Shown here piece by piece: positions 46,379 to 58,582 of a stretch of DNA of 64,000 nt. Numbering within the stretch: the stretch's first letter is position 1; each line of letters opens with the position of its first letter. This DNA is from Shimia gijangensis. GTDB lineage: Bacteria > Pseudomonadota > Alphaproteobacteria > Rhodobacterales > Rhodobacteraceae. Below the pieces are notes generated by a model, which was not told where the DNA came from, ran no database searches, and saw only the letters and a list, made by a program, of their open reading frames with translations. Made by a program: the position numbers and the translations under genes. The stretch is from the NCBI RefSeq assembly GCF_900142085.1, contig NZ_FQZQ01000005.1:124001-188000 (forward strand), written 5' to 3'.

Positions 46379-47368
46379 TTAGTTCAGCGCCTTATCTGTG
46401 ATCGCATGGGTCCATGCGCCCTCAGGTTTCTTGGTGATGACAGGATCAGAACCGCCCGACATCAGGCTGTCTACGGTGCGGTCAAAGTCTGCCGGGTCCA
46501 GCGCGCCGTTTGAACCGGCGGTCAGCTTGGCCACTTCAGACATCATACGCTTTTGGTGCTCTTCGGTTTGAGCACCCGACGCGTCATTGTCCAGAACGAT
46601 CATGGCGGCATCATCTGGGTTCGATTCAGCCCATTTCCAGCCCTTCATCGACGCCCGCACAAAGCGCACCATCTTGTCCTGGAACGCGGCATCCTTGAGG
46701 TTTTCTTCCATGACATACATGCCATCCTCAAGTGTCGCGACGCCTTGGTCTTCGTATTTGAACACCATCAACTCTTCTGGTGTCAGACCGGCATCAATGA
46801 TCTGCCAATATTCATTATAGGTCATGGTGGACACACAAGCCGCCTGACCTTGCAGGATGGGATCAACGTTAAAGCCTTGCTTCAGAACGGTGACGCCACC
46901 ATCTGAGCCATCTGTTGCCAGACCCAGTTTGCTCATCCAGCTGAGGAACGGATATTCGTTACCAAAGAACCAAACGCCCAGTGTTTTGCCTGCGAAGTCA
47001 TCAGGTGAAGACACGCCTGCATCCTTGCGACAGGTCAGCATCATGCCCGACGATTTGAAAGGTTGCGCAATGTTAACCAGCGCCAGACCTTTTTCGCGGG
47101 ACGCCAGAGCAGACGGCATCCAGTCCAGAACCACATCAGCACCGCCACCCGCGATCACTTGCGCCGGAGCGATATCAGGACCGCCCGGTTTGATCGTTAC
47201 ATTCAGGCCTTCGTCGGCATAAAAGCCTTTGTCCAGCGCCACGTAATAGCCCGCAAACTGGGCTTGCGTGACCCATTTCAACTGCAGCGTCACATCATCG
47301 GCCGCATTCGCGATTGAGGCCGCCAGCCCCAAAGCCGCTGCGCCTAATGTTTTGATGATCATTTTCAT
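46379..47368 (-). CDS. ABC transporter substrate-binding protein, NMT1/THI5 family (pyrimidine-related)
   Basis: A 329-residue periplasmic protein with a signal peptide (cleavage near IANA-AD) and an NMT1/THI5-type fold: LQLKWVTQAQFAGYYVALDKGFY at the start of the mature protein and GGGADVVLDWMPSAL. In this family ligands include thiamine precursors and pyrimidine derivatives. Position at the end of a dihydropyrimidinase operon points to a dihydropyrimidine, hydantoin or related nitrogen compound. Confidence 0.88.
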   Translation of the reverse strand: MKMIIKTLGAAALGLAASIANAADDVTLQLKWVTQAQFAGYYVALDKGFYADEGLNVTIKPGGPDIAPAQVIAGGGADVVLDWMPSALASREKGLALVNIAQPFKSSGMMLTCRKDAGVSSPDDFAGKTLGVWFFGNEYPFLSWMSKLGLATDGSDGGVTVLKQGFNVDPILQGQAACVSTMTYNEYWQIIDAGLTPEELMVFKYEDQGVATLEDGMYVMEENLKDAAFQDKMVRFVRASMKGWKWAESNPDDAAMIVLDNDASGAQTEEHQKRMMSEVAKLTAGSNGALDPADFDRTVDSLMSGGSDPVITKKPEGAWTHAITDKALN

Positions 47369-47415
47369 TTTTTACACTCTCCTTGTTGAACTTGATTTTT
47401 TTGTACTTGTTATTG

Positions 47416-48261
47416 TTACTCTTGCCCTCGTTGCGACGGGTGCCAGAAGGTCACCGCCTTTTCCAGCAACGCAACACCCCCATAAAATGCCGACCCTACG
47501 ATCGCCGCGACAACGATCTCAGCCCAGACCATATCCAATGCCAGCCGTCCCACCTCGGTCGAAATACGAAATCCCATGCCCTTGATGGGCGAACCAAAGA
47601 ATTCGGCCACAATAGCACCAATAAGCGCCAGCGTTGTTGAAATTTTGAGCCCATTGAAAATGAACGGCATGGCCGCAGGCAGGCGTAACTTCAGCAGGGT
47701 TTGCGGATAGCTTGCCGCATAGGTGCGCATCAGGTCACGCTGCATGTGGTCTGTCGCTTGCAGACCCTGGACCGTGTTCACCAGCATTGGGAAGAACACC
47801 ATAATGACCACAACCGCCGCTTTGGATTGCCAGTCAAATCCGAACCACATCACCAGAATGGGCGCCATGCCAATGACGGGTAGGGCTGCCACGAAATTCC
47901 CAATTGGCAAAAGGCCCCTCTGCAGAAACGGAAAGCGATCAATGACAACAGCGATCAGAAACGCAGCGCCACACCCGATGATATAGCCGCTCAGTGCACC
48001 CTTGATGACCGTCTGCACAAAATCCTGCCATAGGATACTCGTCGAGCTCGCGAACCGAACCGCGATCATTGACGGCGGCGGCAAAAGAACCGGGTTGATA
48101 TTGAACCCCTGCACGACACATTCCCAAATAGCGATCAAAGTCACGCCAAACAGAACGGGCACGACCAGTCGTGTGAGCCGCGTTTTGGGCAGGTTGGCCA
48201 GCCAGACATTGAGACCCCAGCCGACCAGCCACACAACGATCCCTGCAATCAGCCAGCTCAT
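47416..48261 (-). CDS. ABC transporter permease (SsuC/TauC type)
   Basis: A 281-residue BPD-type permease with about seven membrane segments and the EAA-like loop YPQTLLKLRLPAAMPFIFNGLK. Overlaps the upstream permease gene by four bases. One half of the channel for the pyrimidine-related importer. Confidence 0.9.
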   Translation of the reverse strand: MSWLIAGIVVWLVGWGLNVWLANLPKTRLTRLVVPVLFGVTLIAIWECVVQGFNINPVLLPPPSMIAVRFASSTSILWQDFVQTVIKGALSGYIIGCGAAFLIAVVIDRFPFLQRGLLPIGNFVAALPVIGMAPILVMWFGFDWQSKAAVVVIMVFFPMLVNTVQGLQATDHMQRDLMRTYAASYPQTLLKLRLPAAMPFIFNGLKISTTLALIGAIVAEFFGSPIKGMGFRISTEVGRLALDMVWAEIVVAAIVGSAFYGGVALLEKAVTFWHPSQRGQE

Positions 48262-49145
48262 TGTGCCATCCCCATCCGTTTGAGAACATGTTTCTGGATC
48301 ACCCCGATGATCCCAACCAACGCTGCCGCAAGGGCCGCAGCCGTCAGCAACGCGCTCCAGATTTGAATGGTTTGACCGTAATAGCTCCCGCCCAGCAGGC
48401 GTGCACCCAATCCGGCCACAGCCCCGGTGGGCAATTCACCCACAATGGCCCCAACCAACGAGGCTGCCATCGCCACTTTGAGCGAGGTAAACAAATACGG
48501 CATGGAGGAAGGAAGACGCAGCTTCCAGAACTCCTGGTTGCCCGAGGCATTCCAGGTTTTCATCTGATCCAGTTGCATATGATCCGGACTGCGCAGCCCT
48601 TTGACCATGCCCACGACCACCGGGAAGAACGACAGATACATCGAGATCACCGCTTTGGGCAGCAGACCGGAAATGCCAATCGCATTCAGCACCACGATAA
48701 TCATCGGGGCAATCGCGAGGATAGGAATGGTCTGGCTGGCAATCACCCACGGCATGATGCTCATGTCCATGGTGCGGTTGTAAACAATCCCCACCGCCAA
48801 TGCGATGCCCAGCGCCGTTCCCAGCACAAAGCCCAGCAACGTTGAACTCAGCGTAATCCAGCTATGATAAATGAGTGACCGTTTGGAAAACGCCTTGCCG
48901 CGCAAAACCATGTCGCCCGTGGTTTTCCAAATCTCGGCCCCAACCTGATGCGGCGGTGGCAGTTTGGGCTTCTTCTGGTTCATGGTGTCGGCAATCAACT
49001 CCGAGGTCGACAATTCCACCCCGGCGCGTTTCGCTTTGTCATGGGCCCAGGCAGAATTCAGCGCCACGGACCCTGCATACCAAAGCACAAAGATGGCAAT
49101 CACAACCGTGATGATAGGGCCAATTCTAAACCAAAGTCCGCGCAT
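48258..49145 (-). CDS. ABC transporter permease (SsuC/TauC type)
   Basis: A 295-residue permease with an N-terminal helix and six more membrane segments; the EAA-like loop is GNQEFWKLRLPSSMPYLFTSLK. It is a paralogue of the 281-residue permease, so the channel is a heterodimer. One base overlaps the ATPase stop. Confidence 0.9.
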   Translation of the reverse strand: MRGLWFRIGPIITVVIAIFVLWYAGSVALNSAWAHDKAKRAGVELSTSELIADTMNQKKPKLPPPHQVGAEIWKTTGDMVLRGKAFSKRSLIYHSWITLSSTLLGFVLGTALGIALAVGIVYNRTMDMSIMPWVIASQTIPILAIAPMIIVVLNAIGISGLLPKAVISMYLSFFPVVVGMVKGLRSPDHMQLDQMKTWNASGNQEFWKLRLPSSMPYLFTSLKVAMAASLVGAIVGELPTGAVAGLGARLLGGSYYGQTIQIWSALLTAAALAAALVGIIGVIQKHVLKRMGMAQ

Positions 49146-49930
49146 TATACGTCATCCTCGTGGCCAGCCCTCAAGCCATCGCGCACGCGGTGTGCAATCT
49201 TGATAAACTCTTCGCTGTCACGGATGTCCAACGGGCGCTCTTTGGGCAGGGTGCTTTCAATCACATCGGCAATACGGCCCGGACGGGGGCTCATCACCAC
49301 GATCTTGGTCGACAGATACACCGCCTCGGGGATCGAGTGGGTGACGAAACCAATGGTCTTGTTGGTGCGTGCCCACAGCTCCAAAAGCTGTTCGTTCAGA
49401 TGGTCACGCACGATCTCATCCAGCGCACCAAAGGGTTCATCCATCAACAGAATATCCGCGTGAAACGCCAACGCCCGTGCAATCGACGCACGTTGCTGCA
49501 TGCCGCCCGAAAGCTGCCACGGGAATTTCTTTTCGAACCCGTCCAGATGCACAAGGTCCAGCACCTCATTAACGGCGGCATCCTGTTCGGCTTTGCTCAC
49601 GCCCATGATTTCAAGCGGCAGGCGAATGTTGCCGCCAATCGTGCGCCACGGATAGAGTCCCGCGTGTTGGAACACATAGCCATAGGCACGCGCCATGCGG
49701 GCTTCTTCTGCCGATACACCATTGACCGTGATATCCCCGGCTGTGGGTTTCTCAAGGTCCGCCATCACCCGCAGGAACGTGGTTTTGCCACAGCCCGACG
49801 GGCCGATGAAGCTCACGAAATCGCCTTTGTTGATATCTAGGTTGATATCCTGCAACGCATGCACAGGGCCATCGTTGGTCTGAAAGGTCAGCGAAAGGTT
49901 TTTCGCGCTGATAACCGGGTCAGTTGTCAC
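49145..49930 (-). CDS. ABC transporter ATP-binding protein (SsuB/TauB type)
   Basis: A 261-residue ATPase with Walker A GPSGCGKTT (about 42-50), signature LSGGMQQRASIARA and Walker B ILLMDEPFGALD. SsuB/TauB-like ATPases go with NMT1/THI5-type binding proteins. It energises the two permeases downstream. Confidence 0.93.
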   Translation of the reverse strand: MTTDPVISAKNLSLTFQTNDGPVHALQDINLDINKGDFVSFIGPSGCGKTTFLRVMADLEKPTAGDITVNGVSAEEARMARAYGYVFQHAGLYPWRTIGGNIRLPLEIMGVSKAEQDAAVNEVLDLVHLDGFEKKFPWQLSGGMQQRASIARALAFHADILLMDEPFGALDEIVRDHLNEQLLELWARTNKTIGFVTHSIPEAVYLSTKIVVMSPRPGRIADVIESTLPKERPLDIRDSEEFIKIAHRVRDGLRAGHEDDV

Positions 49931-50000: not shown

Positions 50001-51464
50001 TTAGATACCCGCCGGGATATTCATCGGATCACGCATGATCTGCTTGGGCGAGGTCAGCTCTTTCCACTTTGAAAGGGCCGTGTGGGCCGACGGGAAGGCT
50101 GGACGTGGTACAAACCGGCCCCGACCGGGTTGCGGTTGCGAATTTTGCCCCCAGGCCCAGATCACTTCACCACGGCTGAGCGTGTAACGCGACTGCGCTT
50201 TGACATCGAAGCCTTCGAACACGTTGTAATCCAGAACCGAGTGGTGATTGGCCTGACTGATGGTTTTGGAAATCTTCGGATCCCACACCACGATGTCGGC
50301 ATCAGCCCCTTCCACAATCGCCCCTTTCTTGGGATAGATATTGAGGATTTTCGCCACATTGGTCGAGGTCGCCGCAACAAACTCATTTGGCGTCAAACGC
50401 CCCGTCTCAACCCCTTCGGTCCACAGCACGGCCAGACGTTCCTCAAGCCCGTTAGACCCGTTGGGGATCAGGCAGAAATTGTCTTTGCCCATCAGCTTTT
50501 GCTCGGACGTGAACGCCGCATGGTCAGTCGCGACCACCTGCAGCGAACCCGACTGCAATCCAGCCCACAGGCTTTGCTGATGCTCTTTGTTGCGGAACGG
50601 AGGCGACATCACGCGGCGCGCCGAATGCATCCAGTCGCCGGTGTAATAGACGCTGTCGTCTAGTGTCAGGAACTGGATCAATGGCTCGCCATAAACCCGC
50701 ATGCCCTTTTGACGCGCCCGCCGGATCGCCTCATGCGCCTGCTCACAGGACACATGCACGATGTAAAGCGGCACGCCCGCAGCATCGGCAATGGTGATCG
50801 CACGATTGGCGGCCTCGCCTTCAAACTCGGGCGGGCGGCTATAGGCATGCCCCTCGGGACCGGTGATGCCCTGATCCAGCATCTGTTGCTGCATGTCCGC
50901 CACCAGATCGCCGTTTTCCGCATGCACCATTGGCAGTGCACCCAGCTCTTTACAGCGCTTGAACGAGGCAAACATCTCGTCGTCCTCAATCATCAAGGCG
51001 CCTTTGTAGGCCATGAAATGCTTGAACGAATTGACGCCCATGTCGACGGCATCTTTCATTTCGGTGAACACGTTCTCGTTCCAGCCGGTGATCGCCATGT
51101 GATAGCCAACGTCCGAGCAAATCTGCGGCGCAGATTTCCGGTGCCATTCGTTGATCGCGTTCTTAATCGAGCCATCTTCGCCCGGCAGACAAAAATCCAC
51201 CACCATCGTGGTGCCACCCACCGCCGCAGCCCAGGTGCCGCTCTCAAACGTCTCGGCGGCGGTCGTGCCCATGAACGGCATTTCCAGATGGGTATGCGGG
51301 TCAATCCCGCCGGGGATCACATAGGCGCCTTCGGCATCAATGTATTCATCGCCCTTAAGGTCCTCGCCGATCTGCTTGATGACTTCGCCCTCGATCAGGA
51401 CATCCGCTTTCCATGTGCGATCAGCCGTACAAACGGTGCCGCCTTTGATTACCTTAGTTGTCAT
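50001..51464 (-). CDS. hydA: Dihydropyrimidinase
   Basis: A 487-residue amidohydrolase-superfamily enzyme: GIDPHTHLEMPFMG (His57, His59), the carbamylated lysine in FMAYKGAL (Lys154), VHAENGD, IVHVSCEQAHEA and VVATDHAAF (catalytic Asp). Length and motifs match bacterial dihydropyrimidinases/hydantoinases. It opens dihydrouracil or dihydrothymine to N-carbamoyl-beta-amino acid. Its ATG overlaps the stop of the small membrane protein gene (ATGA). Confidence 0.94.
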   Translation of the reverse strand: MTTKVIKGGTVCTADRTWKADVLIEGEVIKQIGEDLKGDEYIDAEGAYVIPGGIDPHTHLEMPFMGTTAAETFESGTWAAAVGGTTMVVDFCLPGEDGSIKNAINEWHRKSAPQICSDVGYHMAITGWNENVFTEMKDAVDMGVNSFKHFMAYKGALMIEDDEMFASFKRCKELGALPMVHAENGDLVADMQQQMLDQGITGPEGHAYSRPPEFEGEAANRAITIADAAGVPLYIVHVSCEQAHEAIRRARQKGMRVYGEPLIQFLTLDDSVYYTGDWMHSARRVMSPPFRNKEHQQSLWAGLQSGSLQVVATDHAAFTSEQKLMGKDNFCLIPNGSNGLEERLAVLWTEGVETGRLTPNEFVAATSTNVAKILNIYPKKGAIVEGADADIVVWDPKISKTISQANHHSVLDYNVFEGFDVKAQSRYTLSRGEVIWAWGQNSQPQPGRGRFVPRPAFPSAHTALSKWKELTSPKQIMRDPMNIPAGI

Positions 51465-51910
51465 TGAATTCTCCCCTCTTTAACCCGTGCAAAGGCCATG
51501 TTGAAAACGTCCCAAAACGCAATCATGACCAACATCGCGTAGACTCGAAACGCATCATCAGACAGCGCCACACTTTCAACTGTCACTTCACCCAAATGAT
51601 TGGATATACGCCCAAGCAATTGATCTTGTTCTATATTCGGCCAAGCCAGATAAAAAATGTAACCGACCGAGGTAAACACAAACACGATAAACGTGTTGAT
51701 ATAGTACAGCAGAAAGGCCCCAACCGCCGTAAAGATCAGGAACCAGTTTTCGGTCATCGTCTCATAGACTTTCAGAACGAAAAAATGCAGCTCGTTGTCG
51801 GCCCTGGCCCACAGAACATAAGCCGTAAGGCCAAACACGCCCAAGACAAAGTAGACCGAGAACCTTTCTGCGAGGCTATTCATAAATACCAAGCTCTCTG
51901 CACCAGCCAT
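51461..51910 (-). CDS. Small membrane protein inside the pyrimidine operon
   Basis: A 149-residue protein with three hydrophobic segments (about 16-33, 52-75 and 122-139), the second preceded by ENWFLIFTAVGAF. I do not recognise a family. It is translationally coupled to dihydropyrimidinase by an ATGA overlap and follows beta-ureidopropionase by 18 bases, so it probably works in the same pathway, perhaps in substrate or product transport. Confidence 0.75.
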   Translation of the reverse strand: MAGAESLVFMNSLAERFSVYFVLGVFGLTAYVLWARADNELHFFVLKVYETMTENWFLIFTAVGAFLLYYINTFIVFVFTSVGYIFYLAWPNIEQDQLLGRISNHLGEVTVESVALSDDAFRVYAMLVMIAFWDVFNMAFARVKEGRIQ

Positions 51911-51928: not shown

Positions 51929-53179
51929 TCACTCCACAATCTCCGCCGTTTCCAGCACCGCATGCATCAACACATCTGTGCCTGCAGCGGCCCACTCGCG
52001 TGAAATATCTTCGGCCTCATTGTGAGACAATCCATCTACGCAAGGACACATCACCATTGCCGTCGGGGCCACTTGGTTGATCCAGCAGGCATCATGCCCG
52101 GCACCTGAAATCAGGTCGCGGTGGGAATATCCGAGACGCTCAGCGGCATTGCGCACAGCCGTCACACAGCCTTCATCAAATTCTACGGGGTCAAACCCGC
52201 CGACTTTTTCAAATGCAATGCTCAGACCCATGTCATCCGCGACTTTCTGACCTTCGACGCGCAACCGCGCCTCCATGTCTTCGATCACAGACAGGTTTGG
52301 CGAACGGAAATCCACCGTGAAAACCACTTTGCCGGGGATCACATTGCGGGAATTTGGATAGACATCGATATGCCCCGCAGCGCCCACAGCATGTGGCGCA
52401 TGGCTCCATGCGATTTCATCCACGGCTTCCAGAACCCGCGCCATACCAAGGCCTGCATTTTTACGCATAGGCATCGGGGTTGAGCCGGTATGAGAATCTT
52501 TGCCTTCGATGGTGACTTGGGTCCACGACAGACCCTGCCCGTGCGTGACCACGCCAATATCTTTGCCTTCGGCCTCCAGAATGGGGCCCTGTTCAATGTG
52601 CAACTCGAACATGGCATGCATCTTACGCGCGCCAACCTCTTCATCGCCGCACCAGCCGATGCGCTTTAACTCATCGCCAAATTTCATCCCTTCGGCGTCT
52701 TCGCGATCATAGGCCCAGTCCTGCGTGTGAATGCCCGCAAACACACCTGACGACAACATCGCCGGCGCATAGCGCGTGCCTTCTTCGTTGGTCCAGTTGG
52801 TCACCACAATCGGGTGCTTGGTCTTGATCCCAAGATCCTTCATCGTGCGCAGAATTTCCAAGCCGCCCAGAACGCCAAGGACACCGTCATACTTGCCACC
52901 GGTTGGCTGCGTGTCCAAATGAGAGCCCACATAAACTGGCAGTGCGTCGGGGTCGGTGCCGGGGTATTCGGCAAACATGTTGCCCATCGTATCAAGCCCC
53001 ATGGTACAGCCCACGGCCTCGCACCATGTTTGGAACAACGCACGTCCTTCACCATCTTCGTCCGTCACGGTCTGGCGATTGTTGCCGCCAGCAACACCGG
53101 GGCCAATCTTGGCCATCTCCATCAAACTGTCCCACAAACGGTCGCTGTTGATTTTCAGGTTTTCACCGGGTGCCGCCAT
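51929..53179 (-). CDS. Beta-ureidopropionase / N-carbamoyl-amino acid hydrolase (Zn-dependent, HyuC type)
   Basis: A 416-residue M20/HyuC-type amidase. GSHLDTQPTGGKYDGVLGVLGGLE holds the first metal ligands, TNEEGTRY the Glu-Glu pair, ELHIEQGP the His, and SGAGHDACWI the last His. It hydrolyses N-carbamoyl-beta-alanine (or beta-aminoisobutyrate) to the beta-amino acid, ammonia and CO2, completing reductive pyrimidine breakdown. It is the first gene of the leftward operon, downstream of two RutR-like palindromes. Confidence 0.92.
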   Translation of the reverse strand: MAAPGENLKINSDRLWDSLMEMAKIGPGVAGGNNRQTVTDEDGEGRALFQTWCEAVGCTMGLDTMGNMFAEYPGTDPDALPVYVGSHLDTQPTGGKYDGVLGVLGGLEILRTMKDLGIKTKHPIVVTNWTNEEGTRYAPAMLSSGVFAGIHTQDWAYDREDAEGMKFGDELKRIGWCGDEEVGARKMHAMFELHIEQGPILEAEGKDIGVVTHGQGLSWTQVTIEGKDSHTGSTPMPMRKNAGLGMARVLEAVDEIAWSHAPHAVGAAGHIDVYPNSRNVIPGKVVFTVDFRSPNLSVIEDMEARLRVEGQKVADDMGLSIAFEKVGGFDPVEFDEGCVTAVRNAAERLGYSHRDLISGAGHDACWINQVAPTAMVMCPCVDGLSHNEAEDISREWAAAGTDVLMHAVLETAEIVE

Positions 53180-53239
53180 TGTTCTCTCCCTTGCCGTTTC
53201 ACGCGTCGGACCTTGAGGCCTCTTGCAATCGCGCGCTTC

Positions 53240-53255
53240 CTGACCGTATGGTCAA
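53240..53255. promoter_or_regulatory. RutR-like operator 1
   Basis: CTGACCGTATGGTCAA matches the E. coli RutR consensus TTGACCA-NN-TGGTCAA at 12 of 14 defined positions. It lies 61 bases upstream of the amidase start, in the region divergent to the first TetR gene. Confidence 0.65.
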
Positions 53256-53272
53256 GATCAGAGCACCACAAC

Positions 53273-53288
53273 CTGACCAATCGGTCAA
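53273..53288. promoter_or_regulatory. RutR-like operator 2
   Basis: CTGACCAATCGGTCAA matches the same consensus at 12 of 14 positions. Its centre is 33 bases from operator 1 (about three helical turns), and it ends 25 bases before the TetR start, fitting autorepression. Confidence 0.65.
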
Positions 53289-53312: not shown

Positions 53313-53948
53313 ATGCCATACGCCGCACGCCCCAACAGCAAAAAAGAACGCCGCCAAGAGAATGAAAAGCTTATTTTGGCGGCAGCCGAAAAAGTCTTTG
53401 CAGAAGCGGGGTTTGGCGGGGCTACGATGCAGTTGATTGCCGATGTTGCGGGCCTTCCCAAAGCCAATCTGCACTATTATTTCCCCACCAAAGAAGCCTT
53501 GTACAGGCAGGTCGTTCAGAACATCTTTCAGATCTGGTTACAGGCCGCTGATGTCTTTGACGCCGCAGATGGCCCCGAAGAGGGAATCGGGGCCTATATT
53601 GACGCCAAGATGGAAATCTCGCGTCACCACCCTGCGGGATCCAAGGTCTGGGCCAGCGAGGTGATGCATCGCGCGCCGGTCATTCAGGACTATCTTGAAA
53701 CCACACTGGCCGAATGGACCCAAGGCCGTATCGCGGTCATCGAACGCTGGATCGAAGAGGGACGCATGGACGCCATCGACCCACGCCATCTCCTCTATAT
53801 GCTTTGGGCCACGACGCAGCATTATGCCGACTTTGGTCACCAGATTGACACGCTCAACAACGGCATGCCGCTCAGTGATGCACAATGGGAAGAGGCCAAG
53901 ACCTCGGTCAAGCAAATCATCCTGCGCGGCATTGGCGCTACTGGCTAG
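53313..53948 (+). CDS. TetR-family regulator, RutR-like (first copy)
   Basis: A 211-residue TetR protein: helix-turn-helix with AEAGFGGATMQLIADVAGLPKANLHYYFPTKEALY (about 32-65) and a RutR-type C-terminal domain recognisable by VMHRAPVI, PRHLLYMLWATTQHYADF. RutR senses uracil or thymine in E. coli. Location divergent from the pyrimidine operon and next to RutR-like palindromes supports the same role here. Confidence 0.88.
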   Translation: MPYAARPNSKKERRQENEKLILAAAEKVFAEAGFGGATMQLIADVAGLPKANLHYYFPTKEALYRQVVQNIFQIWLQAADVFDAADGPEEGIGAYIDAKMEISRHHPAGSKVWASEVMHRAPVIQDYLETTLAEWTQGRIAVIERWIEEGRMDAIDPRHLLYMLWATTQHYADFGHQIDTLNNGMPLSDAQWEEAKTSVKQIILRGIGATG

Positions 53949-54009: not shown

Positions 54010-54633
54010 ATGGCGAGCATCGCACAAACCCAGAAAAAACCCAGCCGCATTCAACAGCGCAATCGATTGCGGATACTGGATGCAGCGCTCGACGTGTTTT
54101 CCCGCAATGGTTACCGAGGGGCGACGCTGGATCAAATTGCCGAGCAATCCGGCCTGTCCAAGCCCAATATCCTCTATTATTTCGATGGCAAGGAAGACAT
54201 TCACGTCACTTTGTTGAATCAACTGATGGAAAGCTGGCTTGAGCCGCTGGAACAGCTTGATCCCAATGGTGAGCCCTTGGATGAAATTCTGGGTTACGTC
54301 AGCCGCAAAGTGGAAATGACCCGAGAATTTCCACGTGAAGGCCGGCTGTTTGCCAATGAAATTCTACAGGGTGCACCGCGCATGGGCCCGCACCTTGAAA
54401 GCGGGCTGAAGCCCCTTTTTGATGAAAAATGCGCTCTTATTCAGCGTTGGATGGACGACGGCAAATTATCTCCGTCCGATCCACGTCATCTGATTTTTTC
54501 AATCTGGTCGACAACGCAGCACTACGCCGACTTTGACGCACAGGTACGGGTTCTGATGGCCCCGGAAAAAGGTGTTTTGGACGGAGCGGGTGTATTCCTG
54601 ATTACGATGTTCCGAAAACTGCTGACACCCTGA
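54010..54633 (+). CDS. TetR-family regulator, RutR-like (second copy)
   Basis: A 207-residue paralogue of the preceding regulator: LDVFSRNGYRGATLDQIAEQSGLSKPNILYYFDGKEDIHV (HTH) and FANEILQGAPRMG, PRHLIFSIWSTTQHYADF (C-terminal domain, closer to E. coli RutR). A TTGACC/GGTCTT pair at 53965-53982 precedes it, but with wider spacing than the operators above. The MFS gene begins two bases after its stop. Confidence 0.88.
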   Translation: MASIAQTQKKPSRIQQRNRLRILDAALDVFSRNGYRGATLDQIAEQSGLSKPNILYYFDGKEDIHVTLLNQLMESWLEPLEQLDPNGEPLDEILGYVSRKVEMTREFPREGRLFANEILQGAPRMGPHLESGLKPLFDEKCALIQRWMDDGKLSPSDPRHLIFSIWSTTQHYADFDAQVRVLMAPEKGVLDGAGVFLITMFRKLLTP

Positions 54634-54635
54634 AA

Positions 54636-55805
54636 ATGAAGACGAAAGATTCAGGGGCCGCCGCTAAAAGCGGGCACCCATCTTCCGCAACCGCCGTGGC
54701 TGCAATGTTCACGCTGAACGGGGCTCTGTTTGGCATGTGGGCATCGCGCATTCCCGCATTCACCGATGCTCTGCAGTTGGATCACGCAACACTTGGTCTG
54801 CTGTTGTTGCTGCTTGCTGCAGGTGCAATTCTGTCTTTTCCAATTGCCGGCCGGATGACCGACAAACACGGTGCGGCCCTTGTGACACGGTTGTTGGGGT
54901 TCGCCAATTGCGCCGCGCTCATTCTAATTGCTTTCTCGCCGGGCATAGCGACGATTGCGGTCGCATTGTTTCTGTTCGGGGCAACACATGGCGCGATGGA
55001 CGTATCGATGAACGCCTGGGCTGCCGAATCCGATCGGGCGTCGGGCAAAGCTTTGATGCCGGTATTTCACGCTGTCTGGAGCTTTGGCGCAGGTATGGGC
55101 GCCCTAAGCGGTGTAGGTGCGATTGCTATGGATTGGCTCCCCTTGGCTCAGTTCGGTATTGTGGGCGTCATCTTAACAAGTCTGACCCTTTGGCTGGCCA
55201 ACATCCCCTGGCAATCCCAAACTGGTCAGGACCACGGCGGACCCTTGTTTCCACTGCCCAAGGGCCCTCTGCTTTTGGTAGGATTGTTGGCCCTGTGCTC
55301 GACCCTTGGCGAAGGGGCCATGGCAGACTGGAGCGCGATCTATCTCAGAGATGCCGCGGGGGCGACCGAGGGCCTCGCAGCGGCTGGATACGCGGTTTTC
55401 TCCGCTGCCATGGTTTGTGTGCGCCTGTCCGGCGCCGCTTTGACACGCGCCCTTGGGCCAATTCGTGCAACCCAAACCAGCGGGGCGGTGGCTTTGATCG
55501 GCGTTTTGTTGATTGTTGGACTGGCCACACCGCAGGCAACGCTGATTGGGCTTGGATTTCTCGGCCGTGGCTATGGTCTGGTTGTACCGCTGGCCTTTTC
55601 ACGCGCCGCCAATGATCCCGAGCTGCCACAGGCCCAAGCCATCGCGCGCGTGGCGACACTTAGCTATGGCGGTATGCTTCTGGGGCCGCCGACCATTGGG
55701 TTTCTGGCGGCAACCACAAGCCTGCGCATGTCCTTTGGACTGCTAGGTGTTTTGGCCTTGGGCACGATCATGCTGGCCACGGTCCTGCGGCCACCAAAGT
55801 CCTGA
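54636..55805 (+). CDS. MFS transporter
   Basis: A 389-residue protein with about twelve membrane segments, including FPIAGRMTDKHGAALVTRLLGF with the conserved GRMTDK loop after helix 2 and GATHGAMDVSMNAWAAE around helices 4-5. That latter motif is common in fucose-permease/YfkF-like MFS proteins. It is cotranscribed with the second RutR-like regulator, so a pyrimidine-related export or uptake role is likely, but unproven. Confidence 0.87.
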   Translation: MKTKDSGAAAKSGHPSSATAVAAMFTLNGALFGMWASRIPAFTDALQLDHATLGLLLLLLAAGAILSFPIAGRMTDKHGAALVTRLLGFANCAALILIAFSPGIATIAVALFLFGATHGAMDVSMNAWAAESDRASGKALMPVFHAVWSFGAGMGALSGVGAIAMDWLPLAQFGIVGVILTSLTLWLANIPWQSQTGQDHGGPLFPLPKGPLLLVGLLALCSTLGEGAMADWSAIYLRDAAGATEGLAAAGYAVFSAAMVCVRLSGAALTRALGPIRATQTSGAVALIGVLLIVGLATPQATLIGLGFLGRGYGLVVPLAFSRAANDPELPQAQAIARVATLSYGGMLLGPPTIGFLAATTSLRMSFGLLGVLALGTIMLATVLRPPKS

Positions 55806-55869: not shown

Positions 55870-57174
55870 CTATTCGGCAGCCTGCGCCGATGGGTTGTTG
55901 GGGTGCGCGGTCCAGTTGCCATAGTCCGCAGACACAGGCTGGCCGGTGCGTTCGTCCAACTCGCCAGGTTCCAGCGTGCGCATGGTGATGCAGCCCTCAA
56001 CCGGGCACACATTGACACAAAGGTTACAGGCGACGCATTCGTCGTCTTTCACTGTGAACACGCGATCCTCGGACATCTCGATGGCCTGGTGACTGGTGTC
56101 TTCGCAAGCCGCATAACAACGGCCGCATTTGATGCAATCGTCTTCGTTGATGACGGCCTTGGTGATGTGATTGAGGTTCAGGTACTGCCAATCGGTCACA
56201 TTTGGCGTCGCCATGCCGACAAAGTCTGCCGTGCTTTCATAGCCTTTTTCATCCATCCACTGGCTGAGGCCGGTGATCATTTCCTGAACGATTTTAAAGC
56301 CATAGGTCATGACGGCGGTACAGACCTGTACGTTGCCTGCACCCAGCGCCATAAACTCAGCCGCATCGCGCCACGTGGTGATGCCCCCAATACCAGAGAT
56401 CGGCAGCTTGGCCGTTTCCGGATTGCGGGCGATTTCCGCCACCATGTTCATCGCAATTGGTTTCACGGCCGGACCGCAATATCCGCCATGGGTGCCCTTG
56501 CCATCAATCATCGGCTCGGGGCTCATCGCGTCCAGATTGACCGAAGTGATCGAGTTGATCGTATTGATCAGGGACACCGCATCCGCGCCACCGCGCAAGG
56601 CCGCTTCGGCAGGGTAAAGCACGTTGGTGATATTCGGGGTCAGTTTGACAATCACCGGCAAATCAGTCGCCTCTTTGCACCAGCGCGCCACCATTTCGAT
56701 ATATTCCGGCACCTGCCCCACAGCGGACCCCATGCCGCGTTCGGCCATGCCATGCGGGCAGCCAAAGTTGAGTTCAAACCCATCGCATCCTGTCTCTGCA
56801 ATCATCGGCAGAATCTTTTTCCAGGCATCCTCTTCGCAAGGCACCATCACAGACGCGATCACAGCGTGGTCCGGATAATCCCGCTTCACCCGCGTCATTT
56901 CCTCAAGGTTTACCTCAAGCGGACGATCGGTGATCAGCTCAATATTGTTGAGTCCCAACAAACGCCGGTCTGCCCCGTGGATCGCGCCATAGCGCGGGCC
57001 ATTGACGTTGACGACAGGCGGACCTTCTTCGCCGAGCGTCTTCCAGACCACTCCGCCCCAGCCCGCCTCAAAGGCGCGGCGCACGTTGTATTCTTTGTCC
57101 GTCGGCGGCGCTGAGGCCAGCCAGAACGGGTTTGGGGATTTGATCCCAATGAAATCACTTGTGAGATCAGCCAT
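55870..57174 (-). CDS. preA: NAD-dependent dihydropyrimidine dehydrogenase subunit PreA
   Basis: A 434-residue protein. The N-terminal DHODH-like FMN barrel has the catalytic Cys139 in ELNFGCPHGMAERGMG, and GGITTWRDA(AEF) for FMN phosphate binding. The C-terminus has two ferredoxin motifs, CIKCGRCYAACED and CVACNLCVNVCPVEGC. With PreT it reduces uracil and thymine to the dihydro forms using NADH. Complete and collinear with E. coli PreA apart from its tail. Confidence 0.95.
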   Translation of the reverse strand: MADLTSDFIGIKSPNPFWLASAPPTDKEYNVRRAFEAGWGGVVWKTLGEEGPPVVNVNGPRYGAIHGADRRLLGLNNIELITDRPLEVNLEEMTRVKRDYPDHAVIASVMVPCEEDAWKKILPMIAETGCDGFELNFGCPHGMAERGMGSAVGQVPEYIEMVARWCKEATDLPVIVKLTPNITNVLYPAEAALRGGADAVSLINTINSITSVNLDAMSPEPMIDGKGTHGGYCGPAVKPIAMNMVAEIARNPETAKLPISGIGGITTWRDAAEFMALGAGNVQVCTAVMTYGFKIVQEMITGLSQWMDEKGYESTADFVGMATPNVTDWQYLNLNHITKAVINEDDCIKCGRCYAACEDTSHQAIEMSEDRVFTVKDDECVACNLCVNVCPVEGCITMRTLEPGELDERTGQPVSADYGNWTAHPNNPSAQAAE

Positions 57175-57191: not shown

Positions 57192-58514
57192 TTACGCCGA
57201 CAATGTGGCGTGAATATCTTCGGCCGCGTCACGGCCCTCGGCAACGGCGGTCACGGTAAGGTCGTCTCCACCCGTCGCACAATCGCCCCCGGCCCAGACA
57301 CCGCCAATGCTCGTGCGGCCCGTGTCGTCGACAGCAATCTTACCGCCCTCAAGGTCAGGCAGATCATTGCCGTCCAGACTTTGACCAATCGCTTTGAACA
57401 CCTGATCCGCGGCCAGACGAACGGTCTGTCCGGTCGGTTTGAGATCATTGTCGGTGTATTCAAACTCGATCTCACGCACCGCTCCATTGCCGATCATCGC
57501 TTTGGGCGAGGCATTGGTGATGATGCGCACCCCTTTGGATGTGGCAAGGTTCTGTTCAAACACGCTGGCATTCATCCGCTCTGTGCCCCGGCGATACACC
57601 AGGCTGACGTTCAAAGCCCCCAGCAGCTTGGCCTGAACCGCAGCGTCCACGGCGGTCATACCGCCTCCAATCACCACTACATCCCGGCCAATCGCCACGT
57701 CGCTTAAATCCGAAGCCTGACGCAGGTCCGAGATGAAATCGACAGCGTCCAAAACGCCGTCTTTGTCTTCTCCATCAACCCCCATGGCATTGACACCACC
57801 GAGACCAACCCCGAGGAAAACAGCATCATATTCTGCTCTCAGACCATCCAGTGTCACGTCATTGCCAAGCGTCTTTCCGGTCTCAATGGTGATGCCGCCA
57901 ATCTGCAACAGCCAATCGACTTCGCGCGCCGCAAACCCATCCACAGACTTGTAGGATGCAATGCCAAATTCGTTCAACCCGCCAGCCTTGGCCTTTCCGT
58001 CAAACACGGTCACGTCGTGGCCGCTCATGGCCAGACGATGCGCACAAGACAGGCCCGCAGGCCCAGCGCCGACGACCGCAATCTTTTTGCCAGTTTCCGG
58101 CGCCCGCACAAACGGATGCACACCGCGTTCCATCAAAACGTCTGTCGCATAACGTTGCAAACGGCCAATCTCGACCGGTTTGCCTTCGGCGGCTTCGCGC
58201 ACGCAAACCTCTTCACACAGCGTTTCCGTCGGGCAAACCCGCGCGCACATGCCACCCAGAATATTCTGGCTAAAGATTGTGGTTGCCGCCGCTTCAGGTG
58301 TACCGGTTGAAATCTGGCGAATGAACAACGGAATATCGATATCCGTTGGGCAGGCGTCCATACAAGGCGCATCATGGCAAAAGTAACAGCGGTCCGCCGC
58401 CACCAAAGCCTCGTGATCGTCCAGGCGTGGATGCAAGTCGGCAAAGTTGTCAGCCAGATCAGCTGTCGCCAGCCGCCCCGCCACGATACCTTCGCTAAAA
58501 GGAGAGTTGGTCAT
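57192..58514 (-). CDS. preT: NAD-dependent dihydropyrimidine dehydrogenase subunit PreT
   Basis: A 440-residue electron-input subunit: N-terminal [4Fe-4S] cysteines CYFCHDAPCMDACPT and GGMCARVCPTETLCEEVCV, FAD motif IAVVGAGPAGLSCAHRL and NAD motif VVVIGGGMTAVDAAVQA. It passes electrons from NADH to PreA. The gene is 17 bases upstream of preA. A RutR-like palindrome lies 53 bases ahead of the start. Confidence 0.94.
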   Translation of the reverse strand: MTNSPFSEGIVAGRLATADLADNFADLHPRLDDHEALVAADRCYFCHDAPCMDACPTDIDIPLFIRQISTGTPEAAATTIFSQNILGGMCARVCPTETLCEEVCVREAAEGKPVEIGRLQRYATDVLMERGVHPFVRAPETGKKIAVVGAGPAGLSCAHRLAMSGHDVTVFDGKAKAGGLNEFGIASYKSVDGFAAREVDWLLQIGGITIETGKTLGNDVTLDGLRAEYDAVFLGVGLGGVNAMGVDGEDKDGVLDAVDFISDLRQASDLSDVAIGRDVVVIGGGMTAVDAAVQAKLLGALNVSLVYRRGTERMNASVFEQNLATSKGVRIITNASPKAMIGNGAVREIEFEYTDNDLKPTGQTVRLAADQVFKAIGQSLDGNDLPDLEGGKIAVDDTGRTSIGGVWAGGDCATGGDDLTVTAVAEGRDAAEDIHATLSA

Positions 58515-58566: not shown

Positions 58567-58582
58567 TTTATCAACTGGTAAA
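58567..58582. promoter_or_regulatory. RutR-like operator upstream of preT
   Basis: TTTATCAACTGGTAAA is a near-perfect palindrome (one mismatch) that matches TTGACCA-NN-TGGTCAA at 11 of 14 positions, in an AT-rich promoter-like region. It is weaker than the two sites near 53260. Confidence 0.4.

Follow-up and report, generated by a model that had tools for sequence, protein, structure and literature searches.

Which regulator reads the pair of RutR-like palindromes that lies between a reductive pyrimidine operon and a divergent tetR gene in Shimia gijangensis, and does it read them in the DNA code of Escherichia coli RutR? We addressed this question in a 64,000-nucleotide stretch of the genome (the window), the relevant features of which are collected in the table below. 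A precedent for RutR-like control of the reductive pathway exists in Pseudomonas putida, in which PydR acts on the dihydropyrimidine dehydrogenase gene as a RutR-like repressor (Hidese et al. 2012, J. Biochem. 152:341-346, by its title as cited in PMC7332683), and the likeness of the present locus to that system is a RutR-like TetR protein that would govern the reductive pyrimidine pathway. A search of the open-access literature, supplements aside, found no paper describing this locus; PMC12366255 and PMC6657504, retrieved as PydR papers, were false matches, the accessible part of PMC4344238 names RutR for E. coli only, and nothing on regulation was found in the accessible part of PMC7142369, which concerns beta-alanine synthase. 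Leyn et al. (2016, PMC5343134) predicted RutR regulons for 68 genomes from 13 groups of Proteobacteria, with motifs that change between taxa; unlike the locus examined here, the accessible part of that study describes neither pyd targets nor twin sites nor a second regulator, and the two sites may be listed in RegPrecise.

The divergent region and its twin sites

Leftward of the two sites, termed O1 and O2, the closest PDB relatives of the PydC-like protein are an N-carbamoyl-L-amino-acid hydrolase (8apz, 691 bits) and an N-carbamoyl-beta-alanine amidohydrolase (8c46, 659 bits), and those of the dihydropyrimidinase are the D-hydantoinase 4tqt and the dihydropyrimidinase 3dc8. The end of the intervening 149-aa protein, for which Pfam and NCBIfam scans gave no match, overlaps the start of the dihydropyrimidinase, and a relative of this protein was present in one of 100 searched loci (L220, 56%). 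The ABC transporter genes share the direction of this operon with small gaps, the permeases being named by position only. Rightward, tetR1, tetR2 and the MFS gene are faced by preTA on the opposite strand. Across relatives the dihydropyrimidinase is mosaic, with a best-segment identity of 60-65% in part of the loci and 75-96% in the rest; the closest relative by TetR1 (L006) carries the 63% kind of dihydropyrimidinase and yet a PydC that is 95% identical. This mosaic suggests gene replacement.

Table. Features of the pyrimidine locus in window coordinates
Feature	Coordinates	Strand	Remarks
ABC transporter (ATPase, two permeases, NMT1/THI5-type binding protein)	46379..49930	-	Open reading frames; ATPase and binding protein by profile
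Dihydropyrimidinase	50001..51464	-	TIGR02033, 590 bits against a cut-off of 393
149-aa protein within the pyd operon	51461..51910	-	No family match
Beta-ureidopropionase (PydC-like)	51929..53179	-	PDB relatives; substrate assignment putative
Proposed tetR1 promoter	53223..53252	+	TTGCAA (53223-53228), 18 nt, TATGGT (53247-53252, within O1)
Operator O1 (predicted)	53240..53255	.	CTGACCGTATGGTCAA; consensus CTGACC[GA]TATGGTCA[AG] over 80 loci
Operator O2 (predicted)	53273..53288	.	CTGACCAATCGGTCAA; consensus [CT]TGACCA[AT]N[CT]GGTCAA over 80 loci
Proposed -35 (TTGACC) of the leftward promoter	53283..53288	-	Outer half of O2
TetR1, PydR-type TetR_C_3 regulator	53313..53948	+	Profile search, PDB match, tree
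TetR2, RutR-subfamily regulator	54010..54633	+	Downstream of tetR1; profile search, PDB match, tree
MFS transporter	54636..55805	+	Starts 2 nt past tetR2
PreA, dihydropyrimidine dehydrogenase subunit	55870..57174	-	NF006183, 718 bits against a cut-off of 335
PreT/PydX-type oxidoreductase subunit	57192..58514	-	Pfam Fer4_20 and Pyr_redox_2; adjoins PreA
Third operator (predicted)	58567..58582	-	TTTACCAGTTGATAAA; 52 nt upstream of the preT start codon

The original prediction had located, in the gap that separates a RutR-like tetR gene from the beta-ureidopropionase gene, two sites about three helical turns apart, each matching 12 of 14 positions; both the sites and their place in a divergent promoter region were borne out. 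O1 and O2 each carry two mismatches to TTGACCANNTGGTCAA, which we take to be the E. coli-type RutR operator consensus and which was found as text in no paper of the open-access literature search, and the distance from start to start is 33 bp (3.1 turns at 10.5 bp). At up to three mismatches the whole window holds 10 matches against 3.34 expected, so that lone weak matches carry little weight; those at 291, 8709, 10827, 11470, 15761, 38662 and 52789 were dismissed as near chance level. When the 133-bp intergenic region was put through 20,000 dinucleotide-preserving shuffles, at least one site (at most two mismatches) arose in nine and two sites arose in none; the O1/O2 pair is not a product of chance. 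Additional own-genome matches to YTGACCN4GGTCAA (C33:53087, C36:192424 and C71:86835) were rejected, the reversed control likewise giving three.

Conservation is stronger evidence for O1 and O2 than the shuffles. We aligned the window with the best 80 of 456 relatives retrieved with TetR1, giving 81 loci that are related to each other and hence not independent; the best pair displayed 0, 1, 2 and 4 core mismatches in 70, 8, 2 and 1 of these, respectively, and was spaced at 33, 34, 32 and 30 bp in 65, 9, 6 and 1. The exact pattern TGACCNNNNGGTCA occurred 156 times compared with 0 for the reversed control, and 74 compared with 11 times when one mismatch was allowed. Thus, the motif search in relatives found the sites kept upstream of the orthologous operons (80 of 81 loci at no more than two core mismatches), and their absence there, named beforehand as the observation that would count against the idea, was not encountered. 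Information content reached 1.90 and 1.83 bits in the site columns, compared with 1.13 in the spacer and 0.64-0.68 in the flanks, as calculated from 32 distinct rows (65 loci have a spacing of 33, 64 of those at most one mismatch, and 32 of these sufficient flank). Letter counts over 80 loci, the one with four mismatches being dropped, gave a C at position 1 in 78 first sites and 68 second sites, with conserved centers of [GA]TAT in the first site and A[AT]N[CT] in the second; the departures of O1 and O2 from the E. coli consensus are themselves conserved. O1 and O2 are genuine sites that very probably act as operators.

The same 80 loci conserve TATGGT inside O1 in 75 cases, with a TTG 18 nt upstream in 62, and TTGACC in the outer half of O2 in all, from which we infer that O1 contains the -10 of tetR1 and O2 the -35 of the leftward operon. 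Because a strict sigma-70 scan called no promoter on either the tetR1 or the leftward side, these elements are proposed from conservation alone. The conserved blocks could in principle be mainly the core elements of two overlapping divergent promoters in which the palindromes are incidental, and the near-invariance of TATGGT and TTGACC, together with conservation of the upstream TTG, would suit such an arrangement; we consider it very improbable, as each of the two sites also conserves a half that is dispensable for the proposed promoter elements, related single operators occupy the corresponding position before TetR2, and the strict scan is without a promoter. It is also highly improbable that TetR1 is mainly an activator or only an autoregulator, leaving the leftward operon under other control such as nitrogen control. 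Such a role is compatible with the sequence, and in E. coli an indirect activation of carAB by RutR is described in PMC10891134, but O2 overlaps the putative -35 of the leftward promoter and P. putida PydR is a repressor according to the title of its paper.

Subfamily placement of TetR1 and TetR2

The genome encodes two strong RutR-like TetR proteins (210 and 194 bits), the third-best scoring 37 bits. TetR1, which is 94% identical to the TetR1 of an uncultured Shimia, and TetR2 are 31% identical to each other and 36% and 41% identical, respectively, to E. coli RutR, the best PDB match for both. Scores of 194 bits for TetR1 and 211 bits for TetR2 stay below the curated cut-off of 368 bits for the RutR equivalog TIGR03613, and the control of a rut operon that goes with this assignment has no visible counterpart, as E. 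coli has the Rut pathway whereas a search of the window's own genome for RutA gave no match. In two trees, TetR2 grouped with the RutR of E. coli and with rutA-adjacent RutR proteins, and TetR1 fell in a separate subfamily (split support 100/99); in a narrower first tree, built from 119 of 224 distinct proteins and with a bootstrap that had not settled, E. coli RutR instead joined TetR1 (98/54), which was flagged as a long-branch join.

TetR1 itself adjoins reductive pyrimidine genes, as is characteristic of a PydR-type regulator, and joins with moderate support (85/85) the TetR proteins found beside PreT-PreA of other Proteobacteria (L298, L299 and L300, from two f190 genomes and one f212 genome), which are 47-49% identical to TetR1 compared with 32-36% to TetR2. 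Within a fourth PreA stretch (L301), in which PreT-PreA is present, such a TetR was not found. Gene order suggests that the f190 loci are pyd clusters of pseudomonads, with PydR as their TetR; these f190 proteins, 47-48% identical to TetR1 and in the same group, stand in for P. putida PydR in the comparison. Against that system, the Shimia locus has another gene order, paired operators at a distance of 33 bp and, in tandem with TetR1, a second regulator, of RutR type.

The likeness of the locus to E. coli RutR extends to the uracil-contact residues, a related half-site and the divergent promoter position. W77, Y97, W167, Q171 and Q179, the residues that contact uracil in RutR according to the accessible part of PMC10891134, are conserved in all 106 distinct TetR1 and all 117 distinct TetR2 proteins, those of the window included; other subfamily members (L275, L277 and L278) have L at position 77. 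Positions 51, 53 and 56 of the recognition helix are P, A and H in TetR1 versus S, P and L in TetR2, with few exceptions.

Some relatives of the regulators occur in other settings. The TetR1 proteins of Mesorhizobium (L074, L078, L082) are nested inside those of Rhodobacteraceae, and their TetR2 proteins fall outside most of the family's TetR2 in the first tree, a pattern that would fit a transfer of the TetR1 module. For TetR1-like proteins distant from pyd genes in f190 and f212 genomes, the neighborhoods gave no clear pathway. In other families, one TetR1-like regulator lies near a gene of the GTP cyclohydrolase II family and B6-type ABC transporter genes (L284), and another a few kilobases from a xanthine permease (L279), contexts hinting at other nucleobase pathways.

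Co-occurrence of operators and regulators

We compared operator patterns with regulator content in 198 family genomes, scoring TetR1 as present at 60% identity or more. The strict twin pattern was found in 17 of 27 genomes with TetR1 and in 0 of 171 others (Fisher p = 5.5e-18), counts that come from related genomes, so that the events are not independent. Of the 10 TetR1 genomes that do not have a strict pair, six retain degenerate paired sites, spaced by 32-34 bp, and the other four a single site (at most three mismatches). Four further genomes, excluded from the 27, carry a TetR1-type protein of 52-56% identity, three of these proteins being placed in the TetR1 clade by a tree that did not include the fourth, from G160; a strict pair is present in none of them, for a wider count of 17/31. 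In total, 17 of 198 genomes of the family and 5 of 385 of the class, two sets that both include the own genome, carry the pair pattern, and the reversed-control pair pattern had no hit among the matches listed for either. The pair lies always between PydC and TetR1 in the 12 family loci among the matches listed, and TetR1 is beside the pair in three of the five class genomes. In the other two, L107 and L108 (family f10), which speak against the association, a palindromic twin pattern is spaced by 29 bp with no TetR1 or PydC within 1.5 kb, one of the two having a weakly similar TetR nearby (22%). Because of this co-occurrence, we assign the twin sites to TetR1.

The original prediction of a pair of operators held as to the twin itself, but overlooked a third operator before preT. 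At no more than one mismatch, TTTACCAGTTGATAAA has a single match in the own genome, the reversed control likewise giving one; across the family, the pattern TTTACCNNTTGATAAA occurs in 131 of 198 genomes compared with 11 of 198 for the reversed control. It is present in 124 of 160 genomes with TetR2 and in 7 of 38 that lack it (p = 1.8e-11), and its presence in 103 of 134 genomes with TetR2 and lacking TetR1 implies that TetR1 is not needed for the preT site. Restricting the TetR2-less genomes to those with PreA leaves the site in 6 of 16 and absent from 10, versus 124 of 160 with TetR2 (p = 0.0014). Of the seven TetR2-less genomes with the pattern, five have preTA near contig ends and one (G033) has a match that is not beside preT, while G167, which is 100% complete, is a true exception. 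This co-occurrence points to TetR2, rather than the PydR-type TetR1, as the likely regulator at preT. Among 43 preT upstream regions (the first set and the window), 30 have the TTTACCNNTTGATAAA form, 12 a TTGACC-type site and one (L063) neither. Two preT-promoter sites 20 bp apart, one TTGACC-type and the other TTTATTGAT[TC]GGTCAA, are found in nine loci, mostly Shimia (L032, L033, L037, L039, L040, L043, L051, L052 and L056).

A site before TetR2 was detected in 8 of 11 loci where this gene is detached from TetR1 compared with 3 of 57 where it follows directly (p = 3.2e-6), although the eight include four Mesorhizobium loci with an identical site and two (L066 and L071) that are alike, and thus represent fewer independent cases. 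No site was found before tetR2 in the window, and tetR2 therefore most likely depends on the TetR1-controlled promoter. In each of 20 TetR1-less regions, the TetR between PydC and preTA, in the place of TetR1, is TetR2, the gap from PydC exceeding 1 kb in some; each has at least one site (at most one mismatch to TTKAYCN4GRTMAA) within 300 bp before TetR2. As these regions were picked for an exact preT site near TetR2, the preT site is there by selection, in contrast to the site before TetR2. Sites paired at 30-34 bp were found before TetR2 in none of the 20 regions, and in one of them (L207) two sites lie 218 bp apart.

Compared with the E. coli consensus, the twin sites differ on average at 2.1 and 1.7 positions, the TetR2 operator next to PydC at 1.45 and the preT sites at 3.3 (3 or 4), so that none of these operators simply equals the E. 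coli code. RutR-like control of the reductive operon was partly supported, in so far as the sites are operator-like, lie in a divergent promoter and are kept upstream of orthologous operons; its wording as the same DNA code was too simple, given the conserved departures and a twin that tracks TetR1, a PydR-type protein outside the RutR subfamily. We also considered that a single RutR-like code operates throughout, with TetR2, or TetR1 and TetR2 alike, even as mixed dimers, binding both the twin and the preT sites. In favor of this, the half-sites overlap, the uracil pocket is conserved in both proteins, TTGACC-type sites occur before preT in the minority of regions counted above, and by mismatches the preT site is farther from the E. 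coli consensus than are the twin sites. We nevertheless judge a single code unlikely, since the twin pair goes with TetR1, whereas the preT site follows TetR2 and is present where TetR1 is missing, and the recognition helices of the two proteins differ.

Sites beyond the family were compared in the same way. The f190 and f212 stretches gave no TTKAYCN4GRTMAA site at one mismatch or fewer; palindromes at promoter places are CTGTCCAGTTGGACAG in the TetR-PydC gap of L300 (f212) and CTGTCACCGATGACAG before the hydantoinase of L298 (f190), and these share an outer C..G with the twin sites. In L287, whose TetR sits on a long branch within the TetR1 subfamily, the TTTACC-type TTTACCAAAAGGTAAA lies between PydC and TetR, making the separation of codes outside the Rhodobacteraceae-type family only a lead. 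The 6-kb rut stretch of E. coli K-12 has one site at up to three mismatches, TGGACTAAACGGTCAA, between rutA and rutR, which is not significant alone because 33 of 200 shuffles give as many. Two of three other rutA-bearing stretches (L285 and L291) have TGGACCATTTGGTCAA or TGGACCATATGGTCAA before rutA, and no such site was found before rutA in the third (L281) at the same stringency. In L293, a RutR-subfamily protein beside pyd genes is accompanied by TTGACCATTTGATCAA.

Two candidate repressors at one locus

The reading that we regard as probable is that, via the twin sites, TetR1 represses both the pyd-transport operon and its divergent neighbor tetR1-tetR2-MFS, and that TetR2 represses preTA. 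It builds on the sites with their conservation and spacing, the family placing of the regulators, the intact pocket residues and the co-occurrence; the pairing of site and protein, repression, the ligand, promoter positions and operon extents, and a cascade of tetR1 over tetR2, are proposed on these grounds. The twin sites would be operators of TetR1, a putative PydR-type, pyrimidine-sensing TetR repressor, two dimers of which may occupy O1 and O2 from almost the same side of the helix and thereby close the two divergent promoters. Occupancy of O1 would cover the putative -10 of tetR1-tetR2-MFS and occupancy of O2 the putative -35 of the leftward pydC-hydantoinase-ABC operon, until a pyrimidine of the pathway releases TetR1. 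TetR2, the second RutR-family protein, presumably made from the tetR1 transcript, would repress preTA, and with it the first step of the pathway, via the third operator. As the half-sites overlap, cross-binding of TetR1 and TetR2 is possible.

More tentatively, the locus may form a two-repressor circuit in which TetR1, through cooperative twin operators, guards import and the later steps, and TetR2, itself under a TetR1-controlled promoter, guards the first; the DNA codes (CTG..CAR vs TTK..MAA), and perhaps also the ligands, would then have diverged despite the same pocket residues. What appears to be new here is that the twin is conserved, that a PydR-type regulator and a RutR-type regulator are encoded in tandem, and that the two seem to have operators of their own. 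The E. coli RutR motif should accordingly not be transferred to such loci without asking which of the two regulators is meant. Judged from sequence comparison, the locus would be a natural setting in which to test how related repressors that share a pyrimidine pocket avoid each other's operators, and it yields a prediction of which uracil-catabolism promoter each regulator controls across a large bacterial family.
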